Positions 1 to 36,357 of a DNA stretch of 64,000 nt are shown piece by piece. The number at the start of each line of letters is the position of its first letter. Positions within the stretch are counted from its first letter, which is position 1. Source of the DNA: Arenicola marina (taxonomy: Eukaryota; Annelida; Polychaeta; Arenicolidae); the NCBI GenBank assembly GCA_964019135.1, contig OZ025255.1, forward strand, positions 8,866,001 through 8,930,000, written 5' to 3'. The notes under the pieces are model-generated. The model saw only the letters and a list, made by a program, of their open reading frames with translations. It searched no databases and was not told where the DNA came from. The position numbers and the translations under genes are program-made.

Positions 1-325
1 GGCAGAGGGATGGCGTGGTAGCTGTATTATAAGACAGCGCAGTGCCTTACTGAGCAGAGAGATGACGTGGTAACTGTATTATAAGACAGTGCAGTGCCTT
101 ACTGAGCAGAGCGATGGCGTGGTAGCTGTATTATAAGACAGTGCAGTGCCTTAGTGGGCAGAGGGATGGCGTGGTAGCTGTATTATAAGATAGCGCAGTG
201 CCTTACTGAGCAGAGAGATGGCGTGGTAGCTGTATTATAAGACAATGCAGTGCTTTACTGAGAAGAGAGATGGCGTGGTAGGTGTATTATAAGACAGTGA
301 AGCAGCTTACTGAGCAGAGGAATGA
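1..325 (-). repeat. 52-bp minisatellite at nAChR splice donor
   Basis: Six copies or more of a 52-bp unit are seen, and the array continues past the window start. Read on the minus strand, each unit contains CTCTGCTCA followed by GTAAG. That is the last bases of the neighbouring receptor exon plus its splice donor. About 14 exonic bases match the real exon end at 12 positions. The intron side (CTGTCTTATAATACA) also repeats. The array therefore began by tandem duplication across the exon-intron border. Confidence 0.9.
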
Positions 326-665
326 ACTCCGAGGTCTCGGGCAGGTCCTCCCCCATACGCAGCAGGAAGACGGAGAAGGCGAGCAGCACGGTGATGCCCA
401 TGGTGATCTTCTCGCCGCTGTCCGGCGGCAGACAGAATACCAGCAGCGTCAGCGTCGACATCATTACGCAGGGGAAGATGACGTTGTACAGGTAGTAGAT
501 GGTGCGTCGCCGGATGTGGACCGTGAACGTCACATCCGGAAAGGGCTCGCGGCAGCAGGCGTAGTACACGACGTTACGCTCGATGCGAATCTCCACCAGT
601 TCCCACTCGCCGTTCTCGACGTAGTTGCTGAGGTCCACCTCCACCGTCCGGTTGGTCATGTCCAC
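311..665 (-). CDS. nAChR alpha-type subunit, exon with loop C, TM1 and TM2
   Basis: This internal exon belongs to a nicotinic acetylcholine receptor subunit, a Cys-loop ligand-gated cation channel of the plasma membrane. It starts at VDMTNRT after a TTCCTCCAG acceptor (phase 0) and ends after IPLL plus one base at a GTAAGC donor (phase 1). It encodes the last strands of the ligand-binding domain. Loop C is YYACC: the adjacent cysteines mark an alpha-type, agonist-binding subunit. TM1 follows (TIYYLYNVIFPCVMMS). Then comes GEK at the inner mouth and TM2 (MGITVLLAFSVFLL). The GEK glutamate is typical of cation-selective members. The segment after TM2 (ETSEFIPLL) matches the family. TM3, the intracellular loop and TM4 must lie to the left of the window. 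The donor is the seed of the 52-bp array. The family call is very sure; the subtype is open. Confidence 0.95.
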
Positions 666-691
666 CTGGAGGAAGAGGGTGAGGGTGATGA

Positions 692-1025
692 TGATGGATC
701 GGTTGTTTATTCAGGACGCTTCTGGTCATACGCCTCATTGGGAGAAGGATGCGAAGAGTGGAGCCATGTCCCCGGGTAACCCTCTACACTTTGCGTGATG
801 ATGTTGGATTACTGTTTCAGGCCAAATTTGTGCACACATGTGGTAAGATGTAAGACCTCAAGGCTAACGCTGGTCGATCCAAGGGGGTGGATCGTCAATT
901 TTGTACATTTCATACGCGAAATGAAAGGTAATGACATAAAATTTGGCGTCAGGTCGCCTTTTTATGCACATGGAGGCTTCGAACCCACGACCTGTTGATC
1001 TGCAGCTTAGTCTGCTGATACCAAT
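692..1025 (-). mobile_element. tRNA-derived SINE in the 733-bp intron
   Basis: On the minus strand a tRNA-like head carries a B box (GGTTCGAAGCC at about 974-984). A body follows, then a tail shared with two other copies here (tail near 690-770: GGCGTATGACCAGAAGCGTCC). The copies at 28.0 and 36.8 kb share this tail but have different heads. The body motif TGTGCACAAATTTGGCCT also resembles the element at 36.5 kb. It sits in the short intron 666-1398, which has nothing else recognisable. The copy is old and diverged; its exact ends are uncertain. Confidence 0.55.
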
Positions 1026-1398
1026 TGATGAAAACTTCACAATTTATTATTACTTTGTGATGTCTCTCTCCCCTCCTGGCTTGTAATGTGGGACACCCCA
1101 TATCTTCTTAGATCTCACCCTTCACCAAGCTGGAGTCCATGCCCGTGAAAGTCCTGAATTACGCCCATGGGAAATAAAGTGAGACAATGAAAGAGTAATT
1201 TGGTTAATATTATGTTAATAGCAATGATATTCCATTTTGACAACCGCATGTCTAACACAGTATTAAATCACCATAGACGGAAGCGGGGTGGGACAAAGGG
1301 AGGGCATAACTTGGGGTGGAGCGACTCCAATCCACCGTTTTATTACTACTAATTTACTCGTCAAAGCGGGGTGACAAAAGTCAGCATGTCTGCCTTAC
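1026..1398. other. Rest of the intron between the Cys-loop and loop-C exons
   Basis: This AT-rich intron sequence has no ORF or repeat of note. The donor of the Cys-loop exon (CAG then GTAAGG, read on the minus strand, at 1393-1398) is not repeated, unlike four other junctions of this gene. Confidence 0.7.
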
Positions 1399-1579
1399 CT
1401 GGAAGCCATCGTAGGTCCAGGATCCGAACTTGAGTTTGCAGAACTGCTCGTCGAAGGGGAAGTAGGTGACATCGACCTTGCAGGTGGAGAGGAGCTTGGT
1501 GGGGACGGGCCAGAAGACCTCGCCCTCGTGGGTGATCATGGCATTGGCCGGCATCATGCCGTCAGTGTACTCAGCCGCA
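1399..1579 (-). CDS. nAChR subunit, exon with Cys-loop and loop B
   Basis: This 181-bp exon begins with one base that completes the Asn codon split by the previous exon (AA then T), so the joined protein reads [13 protein letters not shown]. It contains the family-defining Cys-loop, two cysteines 13 residues apart around [12 protein letters not shown]. The agonist-binding loop B follows (GSWTYDGFQ). It ends at phase 0 with a CAG/GTAAGG donor, and joins to VDMTNRT in the next exon as the family requires. The acceptor is TTTCTGTCCCCAG. A 27-bp array repeats outward from exactly that acceptor. The family call is secure. Confidence 0.95.
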
Positions 1580-2530
1580 CTGGGGACAGAAACCATGGAT
1601 ACGGTACTGGGGACAGAAACCATGGATACGGTATTGGGGCAGAAACTAGGGATACGGTACTGGGGACAGAAACCATGGATACGGTACTGGGGACAGAAAC
1701 CATGGATACGGTATTGGGGCAGAAACTAGGGATACGGTACTGGGGACAGAAACCATGGATACGGTACTGGGGACAGAAACCATGGATACGGTACTGGGGA
1801 CAGAAACCAGGGATACGGCATTAGGGACAGAAACCATGGATACGGTATTAGGGCAGAAACTAGGGATACGGTACTGGGGACAGAAACCAGGGATACGGTA
1901 CTGGGGCAGAAATCATGGATACGGTACTGGTGACAGGAACCATGGATACGGTACTGGGACAGTCACCATGGATACGGTACTGGGGATAGAAACCAGGGAT
2001 ACGGTACTGGGACAGAAACCAGGGATACGGTACTGGTGACAGGAACCATGGATACGGTACTGGGACAGTCACCATGGATACGGTACTGGGGACAGAAACC
2101 AGGGATACGGTACTGGGACAGAAACCAGGGATACGGTACTGGTGACAGGAACCATGAATACGGTACTGGGGACAGAAACCAGGGATACGGTACTGGGGAC
2201 AGAAACCAGGGATACCGTACTGGGACAGAAACCATGGATACGGTATTGGGGACAGAAACCATGGATACTGTACTGGGGAAAGAAACCATGGGTACGGTAC
2301 AGGGGACAGAAACCATGGAAACGATACTGGGGAACTTTGGTTACGATACTGGGGACAGAAACCATGGGTACGGTACTGGGGAAAGAAACCAGGGATACGG
2401 TACTAGTACAGAAACCAGGGATACGGTACTGGGGCAGGAATCATGGGTACGGTACTGGGGACAGAAACCATGGATACGGTACAGGGGACAGAAACCATGG
2501 GTACTGTACTGGGGAAAGAAACCAGGGATA
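1580..2530 (-). repeat. 27-bp minisatellite carrying a splice acceptor in every unit
   Basis: About 35 copies of a 26-27-bp unit start directly at the acceptor of the Cys-loop exon. On the minus strand each unit reads through TTTCTGTCCCCAG then T, a pyrimidine tract plus AG identical to the working acceptor. Units vary at a few positions (GGGGACAG or GGGGCAG on the plus strand) and decay toward 2530. Because 27 is divisible by three, extra units would add nine residues in frame (TVSMVSVPS) if an upstream copy were used. Confidence 0.9.
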
Positions 2531-3595
2531 ATACAAGCAGTGGATAATGTATCGGGGATTGAGACAATGGACACTAAAGCGACAAGAGACGGTAAAATTA
2601 CCTGCACCGGGCAGGACGGAAACAGCCTTATCTCCTTCCATTGAACCTCCAATTGTCTCAGTTCGGAAAAGCAGTTTATCAAAGACAAGTATAAGGCAAG
2701 GGCTGCCAAAGATCCTATGATTATAGAAAGCCGGCCTTCCAAAGCCCCTTTTGATGAAGTGCGCCTTGACTGTTTTTCATTTTTCGTCATAAATATATCG
2801 TTGCCATGCCATGGGGGAGGACTTAGTCATTGTGATATAATCCTGGGTAGATTACCATTTGGCATGACGAGGGTGACAAATCCTCATGGGAGGAAACTAC
2901 GAAGGGGTGAGATGAGAGAAAATGAACTCAATCAGGTACTTTAGAATATAATGTGGAGATCCCAGATGTGGGTCCTGGCGAGGGAGGGGGTGGAGTGGAC
3001 TACTTGTGTAGCGGTAGGCCTCTCGGGTTACTAGCGGTCAGCCCGCCCCATAGAGCACGTGCGGCAGGAACGCGACAATAAGTTTTAAGTGTAAAGATGA
3101 GTGGGCAGAGTAGGACTATTTGCCCTAGGGTTATATTTTTTAAATCTAAGATGGCGCTCAAGAGAATATATGGCTAACATATAGATAGGCATGAATGCAA
3201 TGACATAAAGTCATCAAAAAATAAACATATATTCACTATAGTTGTCTTAAAATTGTTTTTTTACTTGGTGTATATTTCCCATTTGGTTCACAATTGACTC
3301 ACATTAACAATAATATGACACATTTTACTCTATGAACAAAAACAATGTAACAATTTAGAGCCATCATGGTGAGTGTAGTTTTTGAAGGGGTGTATATATG
3401 CAATATTATAGCCATATATATATATATACATCCATTAACTTCACTCAGTGAGGAAAGGGTTCCCTGAAGACATCAGTAGTCTGGATCACAAAATCGTTAT
3501 TCGACCAGTGGAGTGCAAGTTGCAACAGGCGCTCGATTGTACCCCGATTACCCTCAATATTGCTGAGATGACCTTGACGAAGGAGGATCAAGGAC
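2531..3595. other. Intron sequence without recognised features
   Basis: This is part of the 20.3-kb receptor intron. It has mixed composition, becoming AT-rich from about 3100, with a short TA microsatellite near 3413-3430. I see no gene. Confidence 0.6.
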
Positions 3596-4020
3596 ATGCG
3601 GCGCACTGATGTGGGGTGAAGGGTGGGGTTGTGGTGGGGGGTTAGAGATGAGGATGGCGGTGTGGGGGGAAGGGTGGGGTGGCGGTGTGGGGGTGAAGGG
3701 TGGGAGTGTGGTGGGGAGTTCGAGGTGGGGGGGGATGGTAGAGGGTGAAGGCTGGGGGTGGTGAGGGTGAAGGGTGGGGGTGGCGGAGTGGGGGTGAAGG
3801 GTGGGGTGGCGGTGTGGGGGTGAAGGGTGGGAGTGTGGTGGGGGGTTCGAGGTGGGGGGGGGAGTGGTAGAGGGTGAAGGCTGGGGGTGGTGAGAGTGAA
3901 GGGTGGGGGTGGCGGAGTGGGGGTGAAGGGTGGGGTGGCGGTGTGGGGGTGAAGGGTGGGGTTGTGGTGGAGTGAAAGGCGTGGGGTGAGTCGGAGGTTG
4001 GGGGATGGGGGTGAAAGCGG
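3596..4020. repeat. G-rich minisatellite with a ~127-bp higher-order period
   Basis: Short GGGTGAAGGGTGGGG-like units recur. A longer block holding GTTCGAGGTGG is repeated about 127 bp apart (near 3720 and 3846). The strand asymmetry is strong (G-rich plus strand). No splice junction is involved. Confidence 0.75.
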
Positions 4021-4805
4021 AGCAGGCTGAGTAGAGGTTAGGAGAAGGGGGTGAGGGGTGGCTGCAGAGGATTGGTGTTCAGGACAGGATGGGGCCGGTG
4101 AATTATCTCGGTCGAATGGACTAATCCAACAAGGGACACTTAATCCCCCCCCCCCGTGGCCTTTGCATGGGTGAAGCGGGGCCCCGGCGCCTGTGCCGGT
4201 GTCTGTGCCTGTGCCGGCGCGGTCTGCGGTACTCAAGCGACCATAAGGCCTGGGGAATGGCCCTCCTGGACGGCCGCTCGAGTCAATCGTTTCCGACAAG
4301 GAGTGCCGAGGTCGGGACGCCACCAGGGGTCGCTGTTCCCGGGTCGGGCACCCCGCAGCGACACCTTAAGGGAGACATAGATGGCGGGGTTCGCCGCCAA
4401 ATGGCCCTCTCCCCGAGGGGTGATGCGTAGCGCTTCCCCCGCTCGCTTCCCCCGAGTTCGGGAAGGGTGGAGCGGGGGTTTTTACCGTGCCGTCATAAAT
4501 CAAACAAAGTGGGGCATCTGCGGCGGGGGAGCGCTGATGGTATGTATACGAGAGCCGGCGGACGGTCGGAGAATAAGCGCAAGATGGGCGATGTTCATGC
4601 AAGAGTCAGGCTATACTTGGGAGGAACAACGAAGGCGGGTGGAACGGGAGGCAGACAGCGAGAGAGACGGCGTTGTTAACGACCCCCCCCCCACCCACCC
4701 ACCCCAACCCCCCTTCTCACTTCCCCTACACCCACCCTGCCCCATATAATAGAGGCGAGTGAACCAGACAGCGAGATACACGAAAGAATGAAGTGAAAGA
4801 TATAG
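4021..4805. other. GC-rich intron sequence
   Basis: GC-rich DNA with long C runs (4146-4156, 4682-4712). The open frames here lack any recognisable domain and fit chance in GC-rich DNA. Confidence 0.5.
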
Positions 4806-5740
4806 GTTTGTGGGTTGGAGGTGACTGTGGGGTGGAAGCCTCTGTGGGGTGGAGTGACTGTGGGGTGGAAGCCTCTGTGGGGTGGAGTGTCTGTGGGGTG
4901 GAAGCCTCTGTGGGTTGGAGTGTCTGTGGGGTGGAAGCCTCTGTGGGGTGGAGGTGTCTGTGGGGTGGAAGCCTCTGTGGGTTGGAGGTGTCTGTGGGGT
5001 GGAAGCCTCTGTGGGGTGGAGGTGTCTGTGGGGTGGAAGCCTCTGTGGGGTGGAGGTGTCTGTGGGGTGGAATCCTCTGTGGGGTGGAGGTGTCTGTGGG
5101 GTGGAAGCCTCTGTGGGGTGGAGGTGTCTGTGGGGTGGAAGCCTCTGTGGGGTGGAGGCCTCTGTGGGGTGGAGGTGTCTGTGGGGTGGAGGTGTCTGTG
5201 GGGTGGAAGCCTCTGTGGGGTAGAGGTGTCTGTGGGGTGGAATCCTCTGTGGGGTGGAGGTTTCTGTGGGGTGGAGGTGTCTGTGGGGTGGAAGCCTCTG
5301 TGGGGTGGAGGTGTCTGTGGGGTGGAAGCCTCTGTGGGGTGGAGGTGTCTGTGGGGTGGAATCCTCTGTGGGGTGGAGGTGTCTGTGGGGTGGAGGTGTC
5401 TGTGGGGTGGAAGCCTCTGTGGGTTAGAGGTGTCTGTGGGGTGGAAGCCTCTGTGGGGTGGAAGCCTCTGTGGGGTGGAGGTGTCTGTGGGGTGGAAGGC
5501 TATGTGGGGTGGAGTGTCTGTGGGGTGGAAGGCTCTGTGGGGTGGAGGTGTCTGTGGGGTGGAATGCTCTGTGGGGTGGAGTGTCTGGGGTGGAAGCTTC
5601 TTTGGGATGGCGGTGTCTGTAGGGTGGAAGCCTCTGTGGGGTGGAGGTGTCTGTGGGGTGGAAGCCTCTGTGGGGTGGAAGGCTCTGTGAGGGGGAAGCC
5701 TCTGTGGGGTGGAATTCTATGAGGTGGAGGTTCCTCTGTA
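4806..5740. repeat. 17/34-bp minisatellite in the receptor intron
   Basis: A 17-bp core ending CTGTGGGGTGGA alternates between two forms (GCCT and GTGT before CTGTGG), giving a 34-bp dimer repeated for about 0.93 kb. The edges decay at both ends. The long frames rich in CGVEASVGW are a by-product of the repeat. Confidence 0.9.
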
Positions 5741-6092
5741 CTGTGGAGGATTTTAATGAAGCAGAGTGACATATGGTCGCGAGATACGGGCAATGGGATC
5801 GGGTACCTTGACTCCCAATAACACTGCTTACAATTGCTGGACGACGCGTTATGGCCATGTAATGCCCCCCTCGAGGGGCAGTTACCCTTCCCCCCCATGG
5901 TCCAGTATCTCATCCCCATGCGAGGTAGCCTATCACAATGTGCTGCCTCCAGCAGCACACTGACAGGCCGCCATGGGGGTATATTTGTCTCCTATATTGC
6001 AACTAAATATACAGATTAAGAGTCAGGGTAATGAAAACGACGACTCGGTTGTCGAGGTCAAGGCCGTAGGTGTTAAGGTCAAGGATGTTAGC
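5741..6092. other. Left flank of the TIR element
   Basis: Mostly unremarkable intron. The last ~55 bases (about 6038-6092) contain two or three diverged copies of a GTCGAGGTCAAGG unit. This unit also lies on the far side of the TIR element, so the element probably landed inside that small array. Confidence 0.6.
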
Positions 6093-6556
6093 GGAGCAGA
6101 TAAGTGAAAAAAATCGTTCAATTTGTGAGACAAGCACCAAATTTGGCATGGACGTTCCCCTGGGTCTAGTTTTAAAAAAAAGCCCGTTAGCCACTTAAAA
6201 ATTCAAAATGGCGGCCATTTTTCAAGATGGCCGCCATTTTCGCCATAAAAATACGGTTTTCGCCGTTAAAATTGACTGAGTAGTCCGACTTTAATGATTT
6301 TGATGTCCATTTATATGTTTTAGACCACGCCAAAACCGAACTTGCAGATCTTAAGATCAAAATGGCTGCCATTTTTCAAGATGGCCGCCATTTTCACCAT
6401 AAAAATACGGTTTTTGCCGTTAAAGTTGACTGAGTAGTCCGACTTTAATGATTTTGATGTCGATTTATATATTTTAGACCACACCAAAACCGAATTTGCA
6501 GATCTTAAAATCAAAATGGCTGCCATTTTTCAAGATGGCCACCAATTTCAGTATAA
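6093..6556 (+). repeat. Left terminal inverted repeat
   Basis: Three successive 154-bp subrepeats start at about 6205, 6359 and 6513. Each has AAAATGG(C/T)(G/T)GCC followed by its own near-palindrome (GATGGCCGCCATTTT). The arm matches the right end in inverse orientation over its whole length. Confidence 0.85.
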
Positions 6557-6559
6557 CAA

Positions 6560-7198
6560 ATGATTTTTGACGTTAAAGTATATTCTGCCAAGTACAAATG
6601 GACAGATGTTGTGTTTCATCTCTACCGGTCATCCCGTCTGAAGGCTGACACAAGGGCAAATCGGAGTGTGGGTGCCAGACGCAGGGTGACAGACAAAAGA
6701 AAACTTCCCCCAAACTGGCGAATCTTCTTGAGTGACAACAACAAGACCGAGATCTTCAACTTCCTGGCGGACAAAATTGTTAAGATGTGCACTCTTAACA
6801 CAGTGATCGTCACCAAGGAAGAAACCGATGTGAGCAATCAAACAGTCAGTCTGGCTGGCATGAGTCCTTGTAACCACGAAGAAGCGGATACGCGGATCTT
6901 TGTGCATGCCAAACACGCTGCATCAGAGGGTAACAACGTTATCACGATCAAAGCAAATGACACAGATGTTCTAGTCATAGCAGTCAGTGTCCTGTCAGCC
7001 TTGCAGGACATTACTCTGGAGAAGCTGTGGATTGCGTTTGGTCAAGGAGAGAACCTGCGGTGGATTCCCATTCATGATCTCACTCCCTCCGTTAGACCAG
7101 AGAAGACCAAGGGCATTCTCTTCTTTCATGCCTTCACTGGTTGTGATGTTGTGTCGGTCTTTCGTGGAAAAGGGAAGAAGACTGCATGGCAAACCTGA
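6560..7198 (+). pseudogene. Broken PIN/FEN-like nuclease-type ORF of a mobile element
   Basis: This 212-residue frame resembles a protein family that I recall (from memory) being common in cnidarian, lancelet and other invertebrate predictions. An N-terminal part has RRRVTDKRKLPPNW. EEADTRIFVHAKHAASEG then DTDVLVIAV resemble the acidic XPG-I motif of flap endonucleases. GCDVVSVFRGKGKKTAW resembles the FEN-type helix-hairpin segment. Downstream to about 7660 the family's C-terminal part, including a Cys-rich cluster, is still recognisable but in other frames. At least three breaks are present, so it is not expressed as an intact protein. The enzymatic role is inferred from motif likeness only. 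Confidence 0.65.
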
Positions 7199-7856
7199 GA
7201 TGTATACCATGAAGCTTCTGAGGTCTTCAGAAAACTTCAAAAAGACCTGAAGGTTCTCGAGAAGTTTGTAATCACACTGTATGACAGGTCCAGTGCAGCT
7301 ACAGGAGTTGATGAGTTGATGAAGACTTGACATGTTTGCGCGAAAGCAGAGACCTTACGACGCCATTCCGCCAAATCGAGCAGCCCTCTTTGAGCAAGCC
7401 AAGCGGTCCGCCTACCAGGCAGGGTGCATATGGGGCCAGGCAACAGCGTGCGAGATTGATACACGAAGTCCTGCTGACTAGGGATGGACGAAACGAGGTG
7501 GAACGTGGCAGATGTTCTGGACGACGCTTCCACCAATTGCACAGAGTTGCCAACAGCTGACAAAGTGTGGTTGCAAAACAGAATGCTGTAGCAGGTGCAA
7601 GTGCTATCGTTTTGGTTTGCCCTGCACAGCTTTGTGCAGTTGCAGATGTGAGAACTAGCCTGCATTTTGGCATTCTGTTAGCGCGAAAACATGGACACGG
7701 TTTTTGTGCAAATCAAGGGCACTTTATTCTGCAAATTGTGCAGGACATTATTTTTGTACACTTTGGTTGAAACTGGTATTCATCTTGTAATATTGTATGA
7801 CTCTATATATGTACTTTTTGGAAATAAACGATATTGAAATGGTGTAACAGTTCTCT

Positions 7857-8288
7857 GATGATTTTAAGATCTGCTAATTCGGTTTTGGCGTGGTCTAAAA
7901 CATATAAATTGACATCAAAATAATTCAAGTCGGACTACTCAGTCAACTTTAATGGCGAACATCGTATTTTTATGGTGAAATTGGCGGCCATCTTGAAAAA
8001 TGGTAGCCATTTTGATTTTATGATCTGTAAATTAGGTTTTAGCGTGGTCTTAAACATAAAAATGTACATCAAAATCATTAAAGTCGGAATACTCGGTCAA
8101 CTTTAACGGCGAAAATCGTATTTTTATGATGAAAATGGCGGCCATCTTGAAAAATGGCCGCCATTTTGGATTTTTAAGTGGCTAACGGGCTTTTTTGGAA
8201 AACTAGTCCCAGGGGAACGTCTATGCCAAATTTGATGCTTGTCTCACAATGTGAACGATTCCGCTAAAAAAACACCCTTATCTGCTCC
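7857..8288 (-). repeat. Right terminal inverted repeat
   Basis: This is the inverse counterpart of 6093-6556, with the same AAAATGGC-type subrepeats in reverse orientation and the same outer segment (GGAACGTCTATGCCAAATTT here, its near-complement at about 6131-6152). The arms differ by scattered substitutions, so insertion is not recent. Confidence 0.85.
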
Positions 8289-8359
8289 ACTATGTATAGA
8301 TTTCATGATGAAGGCTGTTAACGTCGAGATGTAAGTTGCATGTTGTGGAAGCCGAGGCT

Positions 8360-8486
8360 CAGGCTGTCGAGGTCAAGGTTGTTGATGTCGAGGTCAAGGT
8401 TGTAGATGTCGAAGTCAAGGTTGTAGATGTCGAGGTCAAGGCTTCAGATGTCGATGTCAAGGTTGTAGATGTCGAGGTCAAGGTGA
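8360..8486. repeat. 21-bp minisatellite interrupted by the TIR element
   Basis: Six or so units of GTTGTAGATGTCGAGGTCAAG, including a few diverged ones. Related units occur just left of the TIR element (about 6038-6092), so the element probably split an older array. Confidence 0.8.
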
Positions 8487-9746: not shown

Positions 9747-12700
9747 GACCCACTTATTGTAAAGGACGATGTCCGGTAGCCATATCTTGTAGCAGGGCGG
9801 TGTACATGGGACGTAGACTCACATATTGTAGAGGACGATGTCCGGTAGCCATATCTTGTAGCAGGGCGGTGTACATGGCACGTATACTCACTTATTGTAG
9901 AGGACGATGTCCGGTAGCCATATCTTGTAGCAGGGCGGTGTACATGGGACGTATACTCACTTATTGTAGAGGACGATGTCCGGTAGCCATATCTTGTAGC
10001 AGGGCGGTGTACATGGGACGTAGACTCACTTATTGTAGAGGACGATGTCCGGCAGCCATATCTTGTAGCAGGTCGGTGTACATGGGACGTATACTCACTT
10101 ATTGTAGAGGACGATGTCCGGTAGCCATATCTTGTAGCAGGGCGGTGTACATGGGACGTAGACTCACTTATTGTAGAGGACGATGTCCGGTAGCCATATC
10201 TTGTAGCAGGGCGGTGTACATGGGACGTAGACTCACATATTGTAGAGGACGATGTCCGGTAGCCATATCTTGTAGCAGGGCGGTGTACATGGGACGTAGA
10301 CTCACTTATTGTAGAGGACGATGTCCGGCAGCCATATCTTGTAGCAGAGCTGTGTACATGGGACGTAGACTCACTTATTGTAGAGGACGATGTCCGGTAG
10401 CCATATCTTGTAGCAGGACTGTGTACATGGGACGTAGACTCACATATTGTAGAGGACGATGTCCGGTAGCCATATCTTGTAGCAGGGCGGTGTACATGGC
10501 ACGTAGACTCACATATTGTAGAGGACGATGTCCGGTAGCCATATCTTGTAGCAGGGCGGTGTACATGGCACGTAGACTCACTTATTGTAGAGGACGATGT
10601 CCGGTAGCCATATCTTGTAGCAGGGCGGTGTACATGGCACGTAGACTCACTTATTGTAGAGGACGATGTCCGGTAGCCATACCTTGTAGCAGGGCGGTGT
10701 ACATGGGACGTATACCCACTTATTGTAGAGGACGATGTCCGGTAGCCATATCTTGTAGCAGGGCTGTGTACATGGGACGTAGACTCACTTATTGTAGAGG
10801 ACGATGTCCGGTAGCCATATCTTGTAGCAGGGCGGTGTACATGGGACGTAGACTCACTTATTGTAGAGGACGATGTCCGGTAGCCTTATCTTGTAGCAGG
10901 GCGGTGTACATGGGACGTAGACTCACTTATTGTAGAGGACGATGTCCGGTAGCCATATCTTGTAGCAGGGCGGTGTACATGGGACGTAGACTCACTTATT
11001 GTAAAGGACGATGTCCGGCAGCCATATCTTGTAGCAGGGCGGTGTACATGGGTCGTATACTCACTTATTGTAAAGGACGATGTCCGGCAGCCATATCTTG
11101 TAGCAGGGCGGTGTACATGGGACGTATACTCACTTATTGTAGAGGACGATGTCCGGTAGCCATATCTTGTAGCAGGTCGGTGTACATGGGACGTATACTC
11201 ACTTATTGTAGAGGACGATGTCCGGTAGCCATATCTTGTAGCAGGGCGGTGTACATGGGACGTATACTCACTTATTGTAGAGGACGATGTCCGGTAGCCA
11301 TATCTTGTAGCAGGGCGGTGTACATGGGACGTAGACTCACTTATTGTAGAGGACAAAGTCCGGTAGCCATATCTTGTAGCAGGGCGGTGTACATGGGACG
11401 TATACTCACTTATTGTAGAGGACGATGTCCGGTAGCCATATCTTGTAGCAGGTCGGTGTACATGGGACGTATACTCACTTATTGTAGAGGACGATGTCCG
11501 GTAGCCATATCTTGTAGCAGGGCGGTGTACATGGGACGTATACTCACTTATTGTAGAGGACGATGTCCGGTAGCCATATCTTGTAGCAGGGCGGTGTACA
11601 TGGGACGTAGACTCACTTATTGTAGAGGACAAAGTCCGGTAGCCATATCTTGTAGCAGGGCGGTGTACAACGGGACGTAGACTCACTTATTGTACAGGAC
11701 GATGTCTGGTAGCCATATCTTGTAGCAGGGCAGTGTACATGGGACGTAGACTCACTTATTGCAGAGGACGATGTCCGGTAGCCATATCTTGTAGCAGGGC
11801 TGTGTACATGGGACGTAGACTCATTTATTGTAGAGGACGATGTCCGGTAGCCATATCTTGTAGCAGGGCGGTGTACATGGGACGTATACTCACTTATTGT
11901 AGAGGACGATGTGCGGCAGCCATATCTTGTAGCAGGGCGGTGTACATGAAACGTATACTCACTTATTGTAGAGGACGATGTCCGGCAGCCATATCTTGTA
12001 GCAGGGCGGTGTACATGGGACGTAGACTCACTTATTGTAGAGGACGATGTCCGGTAGCCATATCTTGTAGCAGGGCTGTGTACATGGGACGTAGACTCCC
12101 TTATTGTAGAGGACGATGTCCGGTAGCCATATCTTGTAGCAGGGCTGTGTACATGGCACGTAGACTCACTTATTGCAGAGGACGATGTCCGGTAGCCATA
12201 TCTTGTAGCAGGGCTGTGTACATGGGACGTACACCCATTTATTGTAGAGGACGATGTCCGGTAGCCATATCTTGTAGCAGGGCGGTGTACATGGGACGTA
12301 TACTCACTTATTGTAGAGGACGATGTGCGGCAGCCATATCTTGTAGCAGGGCGGTGTACATGGGACGTATACCCACTTATTGTAGAGGACGATGTCCGGT
12401 AGCCATATCTTGTAGCAGGTCGGTGTACATGGGACGTATACTCACTTATTGTAGAGGACGATGTCCGGTAGCCATATCTTGTAGCAGGGCTGTGTACATG
12501 GGACGTATACTCACTTATTGTAGAGGACGATGTCCGGCAGCCATATCTTGTAGCAGGGCGGTGTACATGGGACGTATACTCACTTATTGTAGAGGACGAT
12601 GTAGGGTAGCCATATCTTGTAGCAGGTCGGTGTACATGGGACGTATACTCACTTATTGTAGAGGACGATGTCCGGCAGCCATATCTTGTAGCAGGTCGGT

Positions 12701-15700
12701 GTACATGGGACGTAGACTCACTTATTGTACAGGACGATGTCCGGTAGCCATATCTTGTAGCAGGGCGGTGTACATGGGACGTAGACTCACTTATTGTAGA
12801 GGACGATGTCCGGTAGCCATATCTTGTAGCAGGGCGGTGTACATGGGACGTATACTCACTTATTGTAGAGGACGATGTGCGGCAGCCATATCTTGTAGCA
12901 GGGCTGTGTACATGGGACGTAGACTCACTTATTGTAGAGGACGATGTCCGGTAGCCATATCTTGTAGCAGGGCGGTGTACATGGGACGTAGACTCACTTA
13001 TTGTAGAGGACGATGTCCGGTAGCCATATCTTGTAGCAGGGCTGTGTACATGGGACGTAGACTCACTTATTGTAGAGGACGATGTCCGGTAGCCATATCT
13101 TGTAGCAGGGCTGTGTACATGGGACGTAGACTCCCTTATTGTAGAGGACGATGTCCGGTAGCCATATCTTGTAGCAGGGCTGTGTACATGGGACGTAGAC
13201 TCACTTATTGTAGAGGACGATGTCCGGTAGCCATATCTTGCAGCAGGGCTGTGTACATGGGACGTATACCCACTTATTGTAGAGGACGATGTCCGGTAGC
13301 CATATCTTGCAGCAGGGCTGTGTACATGGGACGTAGACTCACTTATTGTAGAGGACGATGTCCGGCAGCCATATCTTGTAGCAGGGCGGTGTACATGGGA
13401 CGTAGACTCACTTATTGTAGAGGACGATGTCCGGTAGCCATATCTTGTAGCAGGGCTGTGTACATGGGACGTAGACTTCCTTATTGTAGAGGACGATGTC
13501 CGGTAGCCATATCTTGTAGCAGGGCGGTGTACATGGGACGTAGACTCACTTATTGTAGAGGACGATGTCCGGTAGCCATATCTTGCAGCAGGGCTGTGTA
13601 CATGGGACGTATACCCACTTATTGTAGAGGACGATGTCCGGTAGCCATATCTTGTAGCAGGGCTGTGTACATGGGACGCATACTCACTTATTGTAGAGGA
13701 CGATGTCCGGTAGCCATACCTTGTAGCAGGGCTGTGTACATGGGACGTATACTCACTTATTGTAGAGGACGATGTCCGGTAGCCATACCTTGTAGCAGGG
13801 CTGTGTACATGGGACGTATACTCACTTATTGTAGAGGACGATGTCCGGTAGCCACATCTTGTAGCAGGGCGGTGTACATGGGACGTATACTCACTTATTG
13901 TAGAGGACGATGTCCGGCAGCCATATCTTGTAGCAGGGCGGTGTACATGGGACGTAGACTCACTTATTGTAGAGGACGATGTCCGGTAGCCATATCTTGT
14001 TGCAGGTCGGTGTACATGGGACGTATACTCACCTATTGTAGAGGACGATGTCCGGTAGCCATATCTTGTAGCAGGGCTGTGTACATGGGACGTATACTCA
14101 CTTATTGTAGAGGACGATGTCCGGTAGCCATACCTTGTAGCAGGGCGGTGTACATGGGACGTATACTCACTTATTGTACAGGACGATGTCGGGTAGCCAT
14201 ACCTTATAGCAGGGCTGTGTACATGGGACGTATACTCACTTATTGTAGAGGACGATGTCCGGCAGCCATATCTTGTAGCAGGGCGGTGTACATGGGACGT
14301 AGACTCACTTATTGTAGAGGACGATGTCCGGTAGCCATAGCGTGTAGCAGGGCGGTGTACATGGGACGTAGACTCACTTATTGTAGAGGACGATGTCCGG
14401 TAGCCATACCTTGTAGCAGGGCGGTGTACATGGGACGTATAGTCACTTATTGTAGTGGACGATGTCCGGTAGCCATATCTTGTAGCAGGGCGGTGTACAT
14501 GGGACGTAGACTCACTTATTGTAGAGGACGATGTCCGGTAGCCATACCTTGTAGCAGGGCTGTGTACATGGGACGTATAATCACTTATTGTAGAGGACGA
14601 GGTCCGGCAGCCATACCTTGTAGTAGGGCGGTGTACATGGGACGTAGACTCACTTATTGTAGAGGACGATGTCCGGTAGCCATACCTTGTAGCAGGGCGG
14701 TGTACATGGGACGTATAGTCACTTATTGCAGAGGACGATGTCCGGTAGCCATATCTTGTTGCAGGGCGGTGTACATAGGACGTATACTCACTTATTGTAG
14801 AGGACGATGTCCGGTAGCCATACCTTGTAGCAGAGCGGTGTACATGGGACGTATACTCACTTATTGTAGAGGACGATGTCCGGTAGCCATATCTTGTAGC
14901 AGGGCGGTGTACATAGGACGTAGACTCACTTATTATAGAGGACGATGTCCGGTAGCCATATCTTGTAGCAGGGCTGTGTACATGGGACGTAGACTCACTT
15001 ATTGTAGAGGACGATGTCCGGTAGCCATACCTTGTAGCAGGGCGGTGTACATGGGACGTATAGTCACTTATTGTAGAGGACGATGTCCGGTAGCCATATC
15101 TTGTAGCAGGGCGGTGTACATAGGACGTATACTCACTTATTGTAGAGGACGATGTCCGGTAGCCATACCTTGTAGCAGAGCGGTGTACATGGGACGTATA
15201 CTCACTTATTGTAGAGGACGATGTCCGGTAGCCATATCTTGTAGCAGGACGGTGTACATAGGACGTAGACTCACTTATTGTAGAGGACGATGTCCGGTAG
15301 CCATATCTTGTAGCAGGGCGGTGTACATGGGACGTATACTCACTTATTGTAGAGGACGATGTCCGGTAGCCATATCTTGTAGCAGGGCGGTGTACATGGG
15401 ACGTAGACTCACTTATTGTAGAGGACGATGTCCGGTAGCCATATCTTGTAGCGGGGCGGTGTACATGGGACGTAGACTCACTTATTGTAGAGGACGATGT
15501 CCGGTAGCCATACCTTGTAGCAGGGCTGTGTACATGGGACGTAGACTCACTTATTGTAGAGGACGATGTCCGGTAGCCATATCTTGTAGCAGGGCGGTGT
15601 ACATGGGACGTATACTCACTTATTGTAGAGGACGATGTCCGGCAGCCATACCTTGTAGCAAGGCGGTGTACATGGGACGTAGACTCACTTATTGTAGAGG

Positions 15701-18700
15701 ACGATGTCCGGTAGCCATATCTTGTAGCAGGTCGGTGTACATAGGACGTATACTCACTTATTGTAGAGGACGATGTCCGGTAGCCATATCTTGTAGCAGG
15801 GCGGTGTACATGGGACGTATACTCACTTATTGTAGAGGACGATGTCCGGTAGCCATATCTTGTAGCAGGGCGGTGTACATGGGACGTAGACTCACTTATT
15901 GTAGAGGACGATGTCCGGTAGCCATATCTTGTAGCAGGTCGGTGTACATGGGACGTATACTCACTTATTGTAGAGGACGATGCCCGGTAGCCATATCTTG
16001 TAGCAGGGCGGTGTACATGGGACGTATACTCACTTATTGTAGAGGACGATGTCCGGTAGCCATATCTTGTAGCAGGTCGGTGTACATGGGACGTAGACTC
16101 ACTTATTGTAGAGGACGATGTCCGGTAGCCATATCTTGTAGCAGGGCGGTGTACATGGGACGTATACTCACTTATTGTAGAGGACGATGTCCGGTAGCCA
16201 TATCTTGTAGCAGGTCGATGTACATGGGACGTAGACTCACTTATTGTAGAGGACGATGTCCGGTAGCCATATCTTGTAGCAGGGCGGTGTACATGGGACG
16301 TATACTCACTTATTTTAGAGGACGATGTCCGGTAGCCATATCTTGTAGCAGGTCGGTGTACATGGGACGTATACTCACTTATTGTAGAGGATGATGTCCG
16401 GTAGCCATATCTTGTAGCAGGTCGGTGTACATGGGACGTAGACTCATTTATTGTAGAGGACGATGTCCGGTAGCCATACCTTGTAGCAGGGCGGTGTACA
16501 TGGGACGTATACTCACTTATTGTAGAGGACGATGTCCGGTAGCCATATCTTGTAGCAGGTCGCTGTACATGGGACGTAGACTCACTTATTGTAGAGGACG
16601 ATGTCCGGTAGCCATACCTTGTAGCAGGGCTGTGTACATGGGACGTAGACTCACTTATTGAAGAGGACGATGTCCGGTAGCCATATCTTGTAGCAGGGCG
16701 GTGTACATGGGACGTATACTCACTTATTGAAGAGGACGATGTCCGGTAGCCATATCTTGTAGCAGGTCGGTGTACATGGGACGTAGACTCATTTATTGTA
16801 GAGGACGATGTCCGGTAGCCATATCTTGTAGCAGGGCGGTGTACATGGGACGTATACTCACTTATTGTAGAGGACGATGTCCGGTAGCCATATCTTGTAG
16901 CAGGGCTGTGTACATCGGACGTAGACTCACTTATTGTAGAGGACGATGTCCGGTAGCCATATCTTGTAGCAGGGCGGTGTACATGGGACGTATACTCACT
17001 TATTGAAGAGGACGATGTCCGGTAGCCATATCTTGTAGCAGGGCGGTGTACATGGGACGTATACTCACTTATTGTAGAGGACGATGTCCGGCAGCCATAC
17101 CTTGTAGCAGGGCTGTGTACATGGGACGTAGACTCACTTATTGCAGAGGACGATGTCCGGTAGCCATATCTTGTAGCAGGGCTGTGTACATGGGACGTAG
17201 ACTCATTTATTGTAGAGGACGATGTCCGGTAGCCATATCTTGTAGCAGGGCGGTGTACATGGGACGTATACTCACTTATTGTAGAGGACGATGTGCGGCA
17301 GCCATATCTTGTAGCAGGGCGGTGTACATGGAACGTATACTCACTTATTGTAGAGGACGATGTCCGGTAGCCATATCTTGCAGCAGGGCTGTGTACATGG
17401 GACGTATACCCACTTATTGTAGAGGACGATGTCCGGTAGCCACGATGTCCGGTAGCCATATCTTGTAGCAGGGCTGTGTACATCGGACGTAGACTCACTT
17501 ATTGTAGAGGACGATGTCCGGTAGCCATATCTTGTAGCAGGGCGGTGTACATGGGACGTATACTCACTTATTGAAGAGGACGATGTCCGGTAGCCATATC
17601 TTGTAGCAGGGCGGTGTACATGGGACGTATACTCACTTATTGTAGAGGACGATGTCCGGCAGCCATACCTTGTAGCAGGGCTGTGTACATGGGACGTAGA
17701 CTCACTTATTGCAGAGGACGATGTCCGGTAGCCATATCTTGTAGCAGGGCTGTGTACATGGGACGTAGACTCATTTATTGTAGAGGACGATGTCCGGTAG
17801 CCATATCTTGTAGCAGGGCGGTGTACATGGGACGTATACTCACTTATTGTAGAGGACGATGTGCGGCAGCCATATCTTGTAGCAGGGCGGTGTACATGGA
17901 ACGTATACTCACTTATTGTAGAGGACGATGTCCGGTAGCCATATCTTGCAGCAGGGCTGTGTACATGGGACGTATACCCACTTATTGTAGAGGACGATGT
18001 CCGGTAGCCATATCTTGTAGCAGGGCGGTGTACATGGGACGTAGACTCACTTATTGTAGAGGACGATGTCCGGTAGCCATATCTTGTAGCAGGGCTGTGT
18101 ACATGGGACGTATACTCACTTATTGTAGAGGACGATGTCCGGTAGCCATATCTTGTAGCAGGGCGGTGTACATGGGACGTATACTCACTTATTGTAGATG
18201 ACGATGTCCGGTAGCCATATCTTGTAGCAGGGCGGTGTACATGGGACGTATACTCACTTATTGTAGAGGACGATGTCCGGTAGCCATATCTTGTAGCAGG
18301 TCGGTGTACATGGGACGTATACTCACTTATTGTAGAGGACGATGTCCGGTAGCCATATCTTGTAGCAGGGCGGTGTACATGGGACGTAGACTCACTTATT
18401 GTAGAGGACGATGTCCGGCAGCCATATCTTGTAGCAGGTCGGTGTACATGGGACGTAGACTCACTTATTGTAGAGGACGATGTCCGGTAGCCATATCTTG
18501 TAGCAGGGCTGTGTACATGGGACGTAGACTCACTTATTGTAGAGGACGATGTCCGGCAGCCATATCTTGTAGCAGGTCGGTGTACATGGGACGTAGACTC
18601 ACTTATTGTACAGGACGATGTCCGGTAGCCATATCTTGTAGCAGGGCGGTGTACATGGGACGTAGACTCACTTATTGTAGAGGACGATGTCCGGTAGCCA

Positions 18701-21700
18701 TATCTTGTAGCAGGGCGGTGTACATGGGACGTATACTCACTAATTGTAGAGGACGATGTGCGGCAGCCATATCTTGTAGCAGGGCGGTGTACATGGAACG
18801 TATACTCACTTATTGTAGAGGACGATGTCCGGCAGCCATAACTTGTAGCAGGGCGGTGTACATAGGACGTATACTCACTTATTGTAGAGGACGATGTCCG
18901 GCAGCCATATCTTGTAGCAGGGCGGTGTACATGGGACGTAGACTCACTTATTGTAGAGGACGATGTCCGGTAGCCATATCTTGTAGCAGGGCGGTGTACA
19001 TGGGACGTAGACTCACTTATTGTAGAGGACGAAGTCCGGTAGCCATATCTTGTAGCAGGGCGGTGTACAACGGGACGTATACTCACTTATTGTAGAGGAC
19101 GATGTCTGGTAGCCATATCTTGTAGCAGGGCGGTGTACAACGGGACGTATACTCACTTATTGTAGAGGACGATGTCTGGTAGCCATATCTTGTAGCAGGT
19201 CGGTCTACATGGGACGTATACTCACCTATTGTAGAGGACGATGTCCGGTAGCCATATCTTGTAGCAGGGCTGTGTACATGGGACGTATACTCACCTATTG
19301 TAGAGGACGATGTCCGGTAGCCATATCTTGTAGCAGGGCGGTGTACATGGGACGTATACTCACTTATTGTAGAGGACGATGTCCGGTAGCCATACCTTGT
19401 AGCAGGGCTGTGTACATGGGACGTATACTCACTTATTGTAGAGGACGATGTCCGGTAGCCATACCTTGTAGCAGGGCCGTGTACATGGGACGTATACTCA
19501 CTTATTGTACAGGACGATGTCCGGTAGCCATACCTTATAGCAGGGCTGTGTACATGGGACGTATACTCACTTATTGTAGAGGACGATGTCCGGCAGCCAT
19601 ATCTTGTAGCAGGGCGGTGTACATGGGACGTATACTCACTTATTGTAGAGGACGATGTCCGGTAGCCATAACTTGTAGCAGGGCTGTGTACATTGGACGT
19701 ATACTCACTTATTGTAGAGGACGATGTCCGGTAGCCATACCTTGTAGCAGGGCGGTGTACATGGGACGTATAGTCACTTATTGTAGAGGACGATGTCCGG
19801 TAGCCATATCTTGTAGCAGGGCGGTGTACATAGGACGTATACTCACTTATTGTAGAGGACGATGTCCGGTAGCCATATCTTGTAGCAGGACGGTGTACAT
19901 GGGACGTATACTCACTTATTGTAGATGACGATGTCCGGTAGCCATATCTTGTAGCAGGGCGGTGCACATGGGACGTATACTCACTTATTGTAGAGGACGA
20001 TGTCCGGTAGCCATATCTTGTAGCAGGGCGGTGTACATGGGACGTAGACTCACTTATTGTAGAGGACGATGTCCGGTAGCCATAGCTTGTAGCTTGGCGG
20101 TGTACATGGGACGTAGACTCACTTATTGTAGAGGACGATGTCCGGTAGCCATACCTTGTAGCAGGGCTGTGTACATGGGACGTAGACTCACTTATTGTAG
20201 AGGACGATGTCCGGTAGCCATATCTTGTAGCAGGTCGGTGGACATGGGACGTATAGTCACTTATTGTAGAGGACGATGTCCGGTAGCCATATCTTGTAGC
20301 AGGGCGGTGTACATGGGACGTATACTCACTTATTGTAGAGGACGATGTCCGGTAGCCATATCTTGTAGCAAGGCGGTGTACATGGGACGTAGACTCACTT
20401 ATTGTAGAGGACGATGTCCGGTAGCCATATCTTGTAGCAGGTCGGTGTACATGGGACGTATACTCACTTATTGTAGAGGACGATGTCCGGTAGCCATATC
20501 TTGTAGCAGGGCGGTGTACATGGGACGTATACTCACTTATTGTAGAGGACGATGTCCAGTAGCCATATCTTGTAGCAGGTCGGTGTACATGGGACGTAGA
20601 CTCACTTATTGTAGAGGACGATGTCCGGTAGCCATATCTTGTAGCAGGGCGGTGTACATGGGACGTATACTCACTTATTGTAGAGGACGATGTCCTGTAG
20701 CCATATCTTGTAGCAGGTCGGTGTACATGGGACGTAGACTCACTTATTGTAGAGGACGATGTCCGGTAGCCATATCTTGTAGCAGGGCGGTGTACATGGG
20801 ACGTATACTCACTTATTGTAGAGGACGATGTCCGGTAGCCATATCTTGTAGCAGGTCGGTCTACATGGGACGTATACTCGCTTATTGAAGAGGACGATGT
20901 CCGGTAGCCATATCTTGTAGCAGGGCGGTGTACATGGGACGTATACTCACTTATTGTAGAGGATGATGTCCGGTAGGCATATCTTGTAGCAGGACGGTGT
21001 ACATGGGACGTAGACTCACTTATTGTAGAGGACGATGTCCTGTAGCCATATCTTGTAGCATTTCGGTGTACATGGGACGTAGACTCACTTATTGTAGAGG
21101 ACGATGTCCGGTAGCCATATCTTGTAGCAGGGCGGTGTACATGGGACGTATACTCGCTTATTGAAGAGGACGATGTCCGGTAGCCATATCTTGTAGCAGG
21201 GCGGTGTACATGGGACGTATACTCACTTATTGTAGAGGATGATGTCCGGTAGCCATATCTTGTAGCAGGTCGGTGTACATGGGACGTAGACTCACTTATT
21301 GTAGAGGACGATGTCCGGTAGCCATACCTTGTAGCAGGGCTGTGTACATGGGACGTATACTCACTTATTGAAGAGGACGATGTCCGGTAGCCATATCTTG
21401 TAGCAGGTCGGTGTACATGGGACGTAGACTCACTTATTGTAGAGGACGATGTCCGGTAGCCATACCTTGTAGCAGGGCTGTGTACATGGGACGTATACTC
21501 ACTTATTGAAGAGGACGATGTCCGGTAGCCATATCTTGTAGCAGGGCGGTGTACATGGGACGTATACTCACTTATTGAAGAGGACGATGTCCGGTAGACA
21601 TATCTTGTAGCAGGTCGGTGTACATGGGACGTAGACTCATTTATTGTAGAGGACGATGTCCGGTAGCCATATCTTGTAGCAGGGCGGTGTACATGGGACG

Positions 21701-21891
21701 TATACTCACTTATTGTAGAGGACGATGTCCGGCAGCCATACCTTGTAGCAGGGCTGTGTACATCGGACGTAGACTCACTTATTGTAGAGGACGATGTCCG
21801 GTAGCCATATCTTGTAGCAGGTCGGTGTACATGGGACGTATACTCACTTATTGTAGAGGACGATGTCCGGTAGCCATATCTTGTAGCAGGG
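9747..21891 (-). repeat. 69-bp exon-intron border minisatellite, about 176 copies
   Basis: A 12.1-kb array with a 69-bp period. On the minus strand each unit carries 44 bases identical or nearly so to the 3' end of the loop-A exon (coding PCYKIWLPDIVLYN), then the donor GTGAGT and about 19 more intron bases. The array grows out of the exon at 21848-21957, whose own last 44 bases are the first unit. Two main unit types alternate (GTGAGTATACG and GTGAGTCTACG). Most copies keep the GTGAGT donor; others have GTGGGT, GGGAGT, GCGAGT or GTGACT. In the receptor's frame GTGAGT creates a TGA in each unit. Confidence 0.97.
16907..18010. repeat. 568-bp segmental duplication inside the 69-bp array
   Basis: Marker variants recur in the same order 568 bp apart: a unit with TACATCGGACGTAG at 16911 and 17479, then a TTGAAGAGG unit, then a CGGCAGCCATACC unit. 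568 equals eight units plus 16 bases. The extra 16 bases form a local duplication at about 17436-17460 (GGTAGCCACGATGTCC), which marks the join. Confidence 0.8.
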
Positions 21892-21957
21892 TAGTCTCAG
21901 GACGCGCAGACCACCGAACTCTTCGGGATCCCACCGCAGGAACATGTCGTCCCATTC
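21848..21957 (-). CDS. nAChR subunit, 110-bp exon with loop A
   Basis: The exon encodes EWDDMFLRWDP, then EEFGGLRVLRLP, then CYKIWLPDIVLYN. These are the WxDxxLxW strand and the agonist-site loop A (WLPDIVLYN) of the receptor's extracellular domain. The acceptor is CCGTATAG at 21958-21960, phase 0. The exon ends with AA before GTGAGT (phase 2), and the split Asn codon is completed by the T that begins the exon at 1579. As I recall, 110 bp is the usual length of this exon across animal nAChR genes, which supports using the first donor. The next exon lies 20.3 kb away. Confidence 0.95.
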
Positions 21958-22259
21958 CTATACGGGATCCGGCATAAGATAACATTGGGGTTATAAAATA
22001 AAGAGGAGGGTCTGAAGCACAATCCAGAGATTACGTCTTGGCGATACCTGTCTGATACTATGTCTGATACTGGGTCCCTTCACGGCATTGGTAACTTTGC
22101 TCCATAATTTAAATTGGCATTACGTAAAATATGCCTCCTTCCACAATGCATTACATAAAAGACCCATCCATGAACATCGCATTACGTCATGCAATCCTTC
22201 CTTAACGAGCTATAAGAGTAGTAGAATAATTGCGTTAGTTAAAACGATACATCTGTTAC

Positions 22260-22820
22260 GTCACATGTACGTGATCCAGTCATACGCGACGTCATACAAA
22301 TGATTCAGTCATACATGACGTCATAAACATGATCTAGTCATAGGCGACGTCATAAACATGATCCAGTCATATGCGACGTCATACACATGAACCAGTCGTA
22401 CATATGGTATGGTCATAGGCGACGTCATACACATGAACCAGTCGTACTTATGGTATGGTCATAGGCGACGTCATACACATGAACCAGTCGTACTTATGGT
22501 ATGGTCATAGGCGACGTCATACACATGATCCAGTCATACGTGACGTCATAAACATGATCCAGTCATATGTGACGTCATACACATGAACCAGTCGTACATA
22601 TGGTATGGTCATACGTGACGTCATACAAATGATTCAGTCATACGAGGCGTCATAAACATGATCCAGGCAGAGGTGACTTCATGCACATGGTCCAGTCATA
22701 CGTGCCGCAATAAACATGATCCAGTCATACGTGACGTCATACACTTGATGCGGTCAGACGTGACGTCACATATTTATAAAGTCAGACGTGACGTTATGCA
22801 TACCTGATCGAGCCATACGT
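22260..22820 (-). repeat. 29-bp minisatellite at the donor of the 45-bp exon
   Basis: About 16 diverged units of 29 bp (or 46 bp in longer variants). On the minus strand a typical unit reads CGTATGACTGGATCATG then TGTATGACGTCA. The real exon end and donor read CGTATGGCTCGATCAG then GTATGCATAACGTCA. The likeness across the junction shows that the array arose from it. Many units carry the palindrome TGACGTCA or CGACGTCA. It is older and more decayed than the 69-bp array. It fills most of the 846-bp intron 21958-22803. Confidence 0.8.
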
Positions 22821-22848
22821 TGGTCACCAGCACCTGATTTTTTTCATC
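22804..22848 (-). CDS. nAChR subunit, 45-bp exon with loop D
   Basis: A 15-codon exon, DEKNQVLVTNVWLDQ, lies between a CCCCTCCAG acceptor and a CAG/GTATGC donor, both phase 0. It is too short to appear as an open frame of note. It matches the conserved nAChR segment that precedes the WxDxxLxW strand and holds the loop-D tryptophan (NVW). 45 bp is, as I recall, the standard size of this exon in the family. The joined reading FDM-DEKNQV and LDQ-EWDD is exactly what the family predicts. Confidence 0.93.
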
Positions 22849-35788: not shown

Positions 35789-36357
35789 CATGTCGAAGAT
35801 CTGCGTCAGGGTGAGCCCCATGCGGACCAGGACGGTGCCGCTAGCGTTGAGGACTGGTCGGACGGCACGTTCATAGTACTGGTCGTAAAGCAGCCGGTTC
35901 ATCAGCTGCTGCTCCATCGGAAGCTCCACATCTTCCTCATCCTCCTCATCCTCTTCCTCCCCCAGCAGGTCCATGCCACCCTCCCCCGGCCGGTCCCGGT
36001 CCAGGAACGACGAGTAGCCCATGTATTTCCTCCGATTGTTGGACGCCAGACCCTGGGGTTTGTCCAACAGAGGGGGGGCTTCTTCCTCGATGGGTGGTCC
36101 CAGCCCATCCACTTCCTCTAGCCCCCCCTCCCCCGCCCCCGTTCCCGGGCTGGTTTGGTCCACCCCTACAAAAAGGGGTTCTCTGCCCGCCTGGAGGGTG
36201 GGAGGGTCATCGCCGCGTCCTCGGCCTTGGAATAACCGACGGTAATGGTAGAGCTCGTCTGACGTCATCCATGATGACGTATTCCCAGAAGTGTCGTTGA
36301 GTAGCGCTTCCGGTTCCACTCCGTCCGGGAATGACGCGCGGCGCGACACGCAGCCTA
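35789..36357 (-). CDS. nAChR subunit, N-terminal exon with acidic extension
   Basis: The last ~50 codons are the start of the nAChR ligand-binding domain: helix 1 (EQQLMNRLLYDQYYERAVRP), an N-glycosylation site (NAS) and GLTLTQIFDM. The exon ends at phase 0 before GTAGGC and joins to DEKNQV. Ahead of this lie about 140 unusual residues, rich in Pro, Gly and Asp/Glu, with a strongly acidic run (GEEEDEEDEEDVELP) and two more possible glycosylation sites (NDTS, NTSS). I place the exon start at 36357, after a TTTTCTCCCCCAG acceptor, giving 569 bp. An internal acceptor (GACAAACCCCAG) would shorten the extension. The upstream exon with the signal peptide was not found. The receptor part is sure, the extension less so. 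Confidence 0.85.

Follow-up and report, generated by a model that had tools for sequence, protein, structure and literature searches.

This locus raises the question of why so many splice junctions of one gene should lie in tandem arrays, each array with a repeat unit of its own. The window, i.e. the whole stretch of 64,000 nucleotides that was analysed (contig C8, positions 8866001-8930000), belongs to an assembly of 867 Mb in 762 contigs and harbors a nicotinic acetylcholine receptor gene, alpha-10-like, on the minus strand. In the translations of the mitochondrial contig, all protein genes share one strand and follow the annelid order (ND4L, ND4, ND1, ND3, ND2, COX1, COX2, COX3, ND6, CYTB, ATP6, ND5); COX1, the gene compared by search, has its best match in the polychaete Pilargis wolfi (91%), with Saccocirridae and Phyllodocida next. 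The DNA is therefore that of an annelid, and an amphioxus origin was rejected. The exons of the receptor gene join in one open frame and are listed below in window coordinates.

35789..36357, minus strand: exon 2, acidic N-terminal stretch and start of the ligand-binding domain
22804..22848, minus strand: exon 3 (45 bp), DEKNQVLVTNVWLDQ
21848..21957, minus strand: exon 4 (110 bp); its donor lies at 21848, and no array touches its acceptor at 21957
1399..1579, minus strand: exon 5 with the Cys-loop; its acceptor lies at 1579, and its donor at 1399 is free of arrays
311..665, minus strand: exon 6, which encodes the end of the ligand-binding domain and the first part of the transmembrane region; its donor at 311 falls in the last array unit
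start at -4319 (locus L013, outside the window), minus strand: exon 7

The upstream end (acceptor) of exon 2 is uncertain; its donor carries no array. The spliced protein matches the families Neur_chan_LBD and Neur_chan_memb, the piece from exon 2 scoring 22.1 bits, below the 26-bit cut-off. With a query of 506 amino acids, the closest match was a protein of Capitella teleta (67%, 100% of the query); molluscan proteins named neuronal acetylcholine receptor alpha-10-like are also near, and alpha-7 chains are the best matches among solved structures. All five joins (E2/E3, E3/E4, E4/E5, E5/E6 and E6/E7) are gap-free in the proteins of Capitella, Sinanodonta, Tubulanus and Owenia, four of the five proteins tested, while the fifth, a shorter protein of Paralvinella, covers two joins, both gap-free. 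Since the ortholog alignments have no gaps at the joins, the predicted exon structure appears sound. Ten further open frames in the window were compared with Pfam, and none matched a family at E <= 0.01.

Arrays were called with Tandem Repeats Finder (TRF), and each junction region was locally aligned to its array, the score being compared with the maximum of 200 shuffles. Arrays lie on five of the ten secure junctions, on one of them weakly: the donors of exons 3, 4 and 6 and the acceptors of exons 5 and 7.

about 9747..21891, minus strand: 69-bp array on the exon 4 donor, 175 units, 12 kb (TRF and junction match)
about -3216..324 (1..319 in the window, L013:6784-10000 outside it), minus strand: 52-bp array on the exon 6 donor, ~3.5 kb (TRF and junction match)
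22272..22794, minus strand: worn 29-bp array near the exon 3 donor (TRF and a weak junction-bearing copy)
1579..2530, minus strand: 27-bp array on the exon 5 acceptor, ~36 copies (TRF and junction match)
L013:5659-5982 (outside the window): 56-bp array on the exon 7 acceptor (TRF and junction match)

The initial annotation had placed the donors at 311, 21848 and 22804 and the acceptor at 1579 within four arrays. The TRF positions agree with this, with a weak case at exon 3 and a single exonic nucleotide at exon 5. Its observation that five other visible junctions are free of arrays (the donors of exons 2 and 5 and the acceptors of exons 3, 4 and 6) was also borne out, the fifth array being found at the exon 7 acceptor outside the window.

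The array on the exon 4 donor, whose 175 units extend to about 9794, is the clearest case. Its unit consists of 41 nt of exon 4 and 28 nt of the intron including the donor, and the array consensus equals exon 4 letter for letter over these 41 nt. The junction matches the array from -44 to +12 with 55 of 56 positions identical (score 107 vs a shuffle maximum of 24). The splice signal has been copied with the units: GT is kept in 162 of the 174 intronic units, and the core TAA/GTGAGT is common to 143 of all 175. Across all 175 units, identity to the exon copy shows no trend (bin means 0.94-0.98), ruling out that older units lie farther from the exon. Read beyond its donor, exon 4 runs immediately into an in-frame TGA (AAT AAG TGA), so translation would end there if a later donor were used. 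The same TGA rules out that the units are coding cassettes, and the divergence by codon position (0.022, 0.014 and 0.020) shows no sign of coding constraint on them.

A unit spanning the exon/intron border is likewise clear at the exon 6 donor (-14..+5, 19/19 identical, score 38 vs 26) and at the exon 7 acceptor (28/32, score 44 vs 25, 23 exonic nt). It is weak at the exon 3 donor (-17..+2, 16/19, score 23 vs 21), where the closest TRF row stops at 22794, ~10 nt into the intron, and rows scoring at least 200 end at 22768. At the exon 5 acceptor the match (13/13, score 26 vs 24) includes the AG and only one exonic nucleotide. A dispersed satellite was considered as a source of the 52-bp unit and rejected, as all 33 genome matches listed lie within the exon 6 array, although the search skips very common words and this is not proof.

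The 40.7-kb gene span contains 16 arrays scoring at least 200, for which 0.23 junction hits are expected. Four hits (E4, E5, E6 and E7) were observed, with P 1e-4, and five if exon 3 is included, with P 5e-6; exon 3 is outside the count at this score, the array edge being more than 12 bp from the junction. The initial claim that the overlap is too frequent for chance is thus upheld in this gene by four to five hits. Its suggestion that the donor arrays belong to the class of 'mirages' agrees with units that span exon/intron borders, as in amphioxus.

Mirages are described in amphioxus as minisatellite-like tandem duplications over 5' and 3' exon/intron borders, in Adh3, TnC and the globins BflGb6 and BflGb9, with similar repeats in PGBD5 (PMC3087553, PMC3902484). 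According to the passages on Adh3 and the globins, many units contain the AG/GT signals, RT-PCR and Adh3 data were taken to suggest undisturbed splicing, the Adh3 mirage shows length instability, also somatic, and the units measure 10-72 bp in Adh3 and 150-160 bp in BflGb6, which has three or six of them (PMC3087553). The acceptor version, which the initial annotation had treated as an extension of the class, is therefore already in print for BflGb6 (PMC3087553). As mirages are published for amphioxus, the structure in the worm is of a known kind: its arrays span exon/intron borders and their units carry splice signals. The worm differs in being a polychaete annelid rather than a cephalochordate, in having up to 175 units and 12 kb, and in having five affected junctions in one gene and a donor bias measured in other genes. 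What the worm adds to the published cases is thus a host among the annelids, together with the array size, the frequency and the bias towards donors.

Three other systems are related. Earthworm metallothionein genes have intron-1 minisatellites of 10-19 kb, i.e. long tandem arrays within an annelid intron, but the passages describing them give no location at a splice junction (PMC12783039). In the RdRp gene of potato, an intron was reportedly gained by tandem duplication across an intron-exon boundary (PMC4974935). Both cases are tandem duplications over a junction; the potato one is single and made a new intron, while the worm has many copies that are apparently silent. For human duplicated genes, internal tandem repeats with a mean of 30 bp x 4 are described at exon-intron boundaries (PMC2812944); these are also minisatellites at such boundaries, but the human arrays are short and, by this account, can alter the transcript. 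Among the titles and abstract openings listed by searches of CC-licensed literature, none mentions junction minisatellites in annelids.

To what extent is this a property of one gene? An independent sample of 58 exons from ~30 gene loci was chosen by protein score regardless of arrays. It comprises chaperonins (PF00118, 30 loci of 49 matches), myosin heads (PF00063, best 20 of 77) and kinesins (PF00225, 8 of 133, best by E-value, four better rows on C390, C536 and C504 being skipped for in-frame stops). From 116 exon ends, 52 donors and 53 acceptors were called with a generic splice-site matrix, L036 being called at a copy inside its array. Six donors were dropped as apparently intronless, terminal or without usable GT (L025, L043, L047, L050, L038 and L040), and five acceptors (L025, L043, L053 and L072, as well as L075, where none was found); loci L001-L009, L021 and L022 are in no count. 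Long open frames around exons were set aside as a proxy for arrays, since they may also span GC-rich introns. Under the null model, the exon-facing edge of an array falls anywhere from one unit inside the exon to the end of the flank, and edges are assumed to be even along introns. Such a null is apt: where the exon itself is free of arrays, the junction next to it can fall only in the outermost unit of an array.

By this null, with donors and acceptors counted apart, only the donors of the sample are clearly enriched in arrays. Seven of the 52 donors are strictly crossed by arrays (L026, L027, L036, L045, L060, L067 and L078) vs 1.03 expected (P 2.4e-5), whereas one of the 53 acceptors is (L042) vs 0.99 expected (P 0.64), i.e. 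there is no enrichment. With array edges at most 5 bp from the junction, there are eight donors (L055 is added at +4), out of 23 arrays in all donor flanks, vs 1.19 expected (P 5.7e-6), or vs 0.94 when the TRF score is at least 200 (P 4.6e-7). The acceptors number two (L027 is added, its copy ending exactly at the AG), out of 28 arrays in all acceptor flanks, vs 1.17 (P 0.33). Within 50 bp, the counts are 11 donors vs 2.39 and five acceptors vs 2.53, and four acceptors vs 1.43 at a score of at least 200 (P 0.046). The direct comparison of donors with acceptors is borderline (8/52 vs 2/53, P 0.052; 7 vs 1, P 0.031). The seven crossing donor arrays come from six gene loci (C8 twice, C17, C11, C12, C7 and C14), and a test at the level of these six genes yields P 0.0014. 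Exon letters occur in the array units at seven of the eight edge-bearing donors (41-89 identical, scores 74-161 vs shuffle maxima of 21-33); the eighth is L055, whose array beginning at +4 holds none. In its simplest form, bare overlap compared with random intron positions, the test proposed by the initial annotation reveals no excess, since eight of the 52 donors (15%) are touched and 14.9% of intron bases are in arrays. The excess resides in array edges and not in coverage, and it emerges only when the null takes into account that contact between an array and a junction is possible at the array's edge alone.

We consider these arrays to be mirage-type minisatellites, formed by amplification of tolerated junction-spanning duplications with an additional bias towards donors, a reading to which we assign a probability of roughly two in three. 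Because exon letters occur in the units, a short tandem duplication would have spanned the splice junction, giving a unit with the end (or start) of an exon and the splice site. Unequal exchange or replication slippage would then have multiplied this unit and kept its copies alike, as the near-identical units suggest. Such a change would be tolerated since the copy adjoining the exon would remain the one used in splicing, with the others removed as part of the intron. In the receptor gene, the clean frame and the TGA past exon 4 point in this direction, and at the sequence level the reading frame and the orthologs agree with the exon-touching copy. Donors may be partly favoured because transcription reaches the correct copy of a duplicated donor before any other, whereas a duplicated acceptor would present its wrong copies ahead of the right one and in competition with it; the new intron of potato RdRp, made by a duplication across an acceptor border (PMC4974935), fits such an intolerance at acceptors. 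Tolerance accounts for the asymmetry between donors and acceptors but not for the excess of junctions over intron interiors. As arrays cross ~7-fold more donors than expected from how densely array edges occur in introns, duplications may have an extra tendency to start at exon ends and intron starts, and G/C runs just inside the intron are a candidate for its cause.

The initial annotation went further and suggested that a process linked to splicing, R-loops or intron ends may be creating the arrays. In this view a splicing- or transcription-linked process (R-loops, a paused polymerase or G-rich intron starts) would actively make tandem duplications at donors. We regard this as possible but rather doubtful. 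It is consistent with the donor excess that survives correction for GC (P 5e-4 by junction, 0.009 by gene) and with the G content, 0.31 in the first 25 intronic nt vs 0.24-0.25 deeper. G/C runs of at least 3 are also commoner in array-bearing donors, whether counted over the first 20 (P 0.01), 30 (P 0.001) or 45 (P 0.0008) intronic nt, and runs of at least 5 in the first 30 intronic nt are present in three of eight such donors vs three of 44 (P 0.04). However, these tests are post hoc with eight donors, the first 30 nt can hold repeat sequence, and only E4 of the three focal donors has such runs. Similarly tentative is a broader version, in which a donor-directed mutational process (transcription or G-rich intron starts) would keep seeding private minisatellites from exon ends in the annelid lineage; a sizeable share of donors (7/52 in the sample) would have decoy donors, and the spliceosome would have to single out the foremost of up to ~163 near-identical donors by where it lies and not by its sequence.

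Composition might suffice if GC-rich DNA is where arrays arise and if introns, AT-richer as a whole, are GC-rich at the exon edges. The GC content is indeed 0.576 in exons, 0.441 in array-free intron and 0.533 in arrays, and 79 interior array units are GC-richer than the background (0.511 vs 0.456). The resulting preference amounts, however, to a factor of 1.47 at donors (1.14 at acceptors), too weak for the ~7-fold excess seen at donors, and we think it improbable that composition is the only cause.

That the rows of donor copies are kept for a function, for example U1 snRNP binding in long introns, is very unlikely in our opinion. The retained GT in the 69-bp array would agree with it, but the donor positions are no better conserved (97.6%) than the exonic part (98.1%; the whole intronic part, 94.6%), and no trend is seen from one end of the array to the other. 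Chance contact in array-rich introns, even with 74,404 of the 154,000 bases (about half) of the 154-kb neighbourhood in tandem arrays and with equal coverage of donors and introns, is least credible of all and largely refuted by the excess in both the sample and the focal gene and by exon letters in the units, which random contact would not place there.

If tolerated duplications with a donor bias are the correct reading, mirages are not a peculiarity of amphioxus but a route by which minisatellites enter the introns of distant animals, and the bias provides a handle on where tandem duplications begin. The array on the exon 4 donor would then be a natural experiment, with ~160 donors spaced at 69 nt in near-identical surroundings. 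Since the frame stays open only after the first of them, the choice of one donor among equal competitors would become testable.

In a neighbouring second nicotinic acetylcholine receptor gene, the corresponding exon 4 donor also carries an array, with a unit of 68 bp. The unit boundaries differ from those of the 69-bp array, and the second array therefore either arose independently or goes back to an old event that was later reshaped.

Tandem arrays are dense around the focal nicotinic acetylcholine receptor (nAChR) gene: counted from Tandem Repeats Finder (TRF) rows scoring at least 100, they occupy 74,404 bases, about 48%, of the 154-kb stretch C8:8826001-8980000, which consists of the window and its flanking loci (L010-L013 and L014-L018). 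Four TRF features of the window and one array in flanking locus L018 are as follows.

window 6199-6579, first repeat with a 154-bp unit (TRF)
window 7859-8174, second repeat with a 154-bp unit (TRF)
window 38767-45825, very long array with a 39-bp unit (TRF)
window 51066-59058, very long array with a 61-bp unit (TRF)
L018:3717-4108, 68-bp array on the exon-4 donor of the neighbouring nAChR gene

The 39-bp and 61-bp arrays lie on none of the exons identified in the window. Both 154-bp-unit repeats contain a motif like AAATGGCCGCCATTT, and by eye the second approximates the reverse complement of the first, an arrangement as in a mobile element. The 68-bp array sits on the junction that corresponds to the one bearing the 69-bp array in the focal gene, the unit boundaries being different.

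Exon 2 of the focal gene (window 35789-36357) encodes a long acidic stretch N-terminal to the ligand-binding domain. Elsewhere in the assembly (C3:53.50-53.85 Mb, C11:5.11 Mb and C6:4.89 Mb), ligand-binding domains of Cys-loop receptors are contained entirely within single open frames of 318-644 aa, which are perhaps intronless copies.

In L042, a locus of the independent exon sample, part of the sequence of the 34-bp acceptor array was found by eye again approximately 36-52 nt into the exon, as if the initial duplication had spanned more of the exon and a portion had later been lost. Kinesin matches on the small contigs C390, C504 and C536 carry in-frame TAG/TAA, and these contigs perhaps come from a co-sequenced organism, for example, a ciliate.
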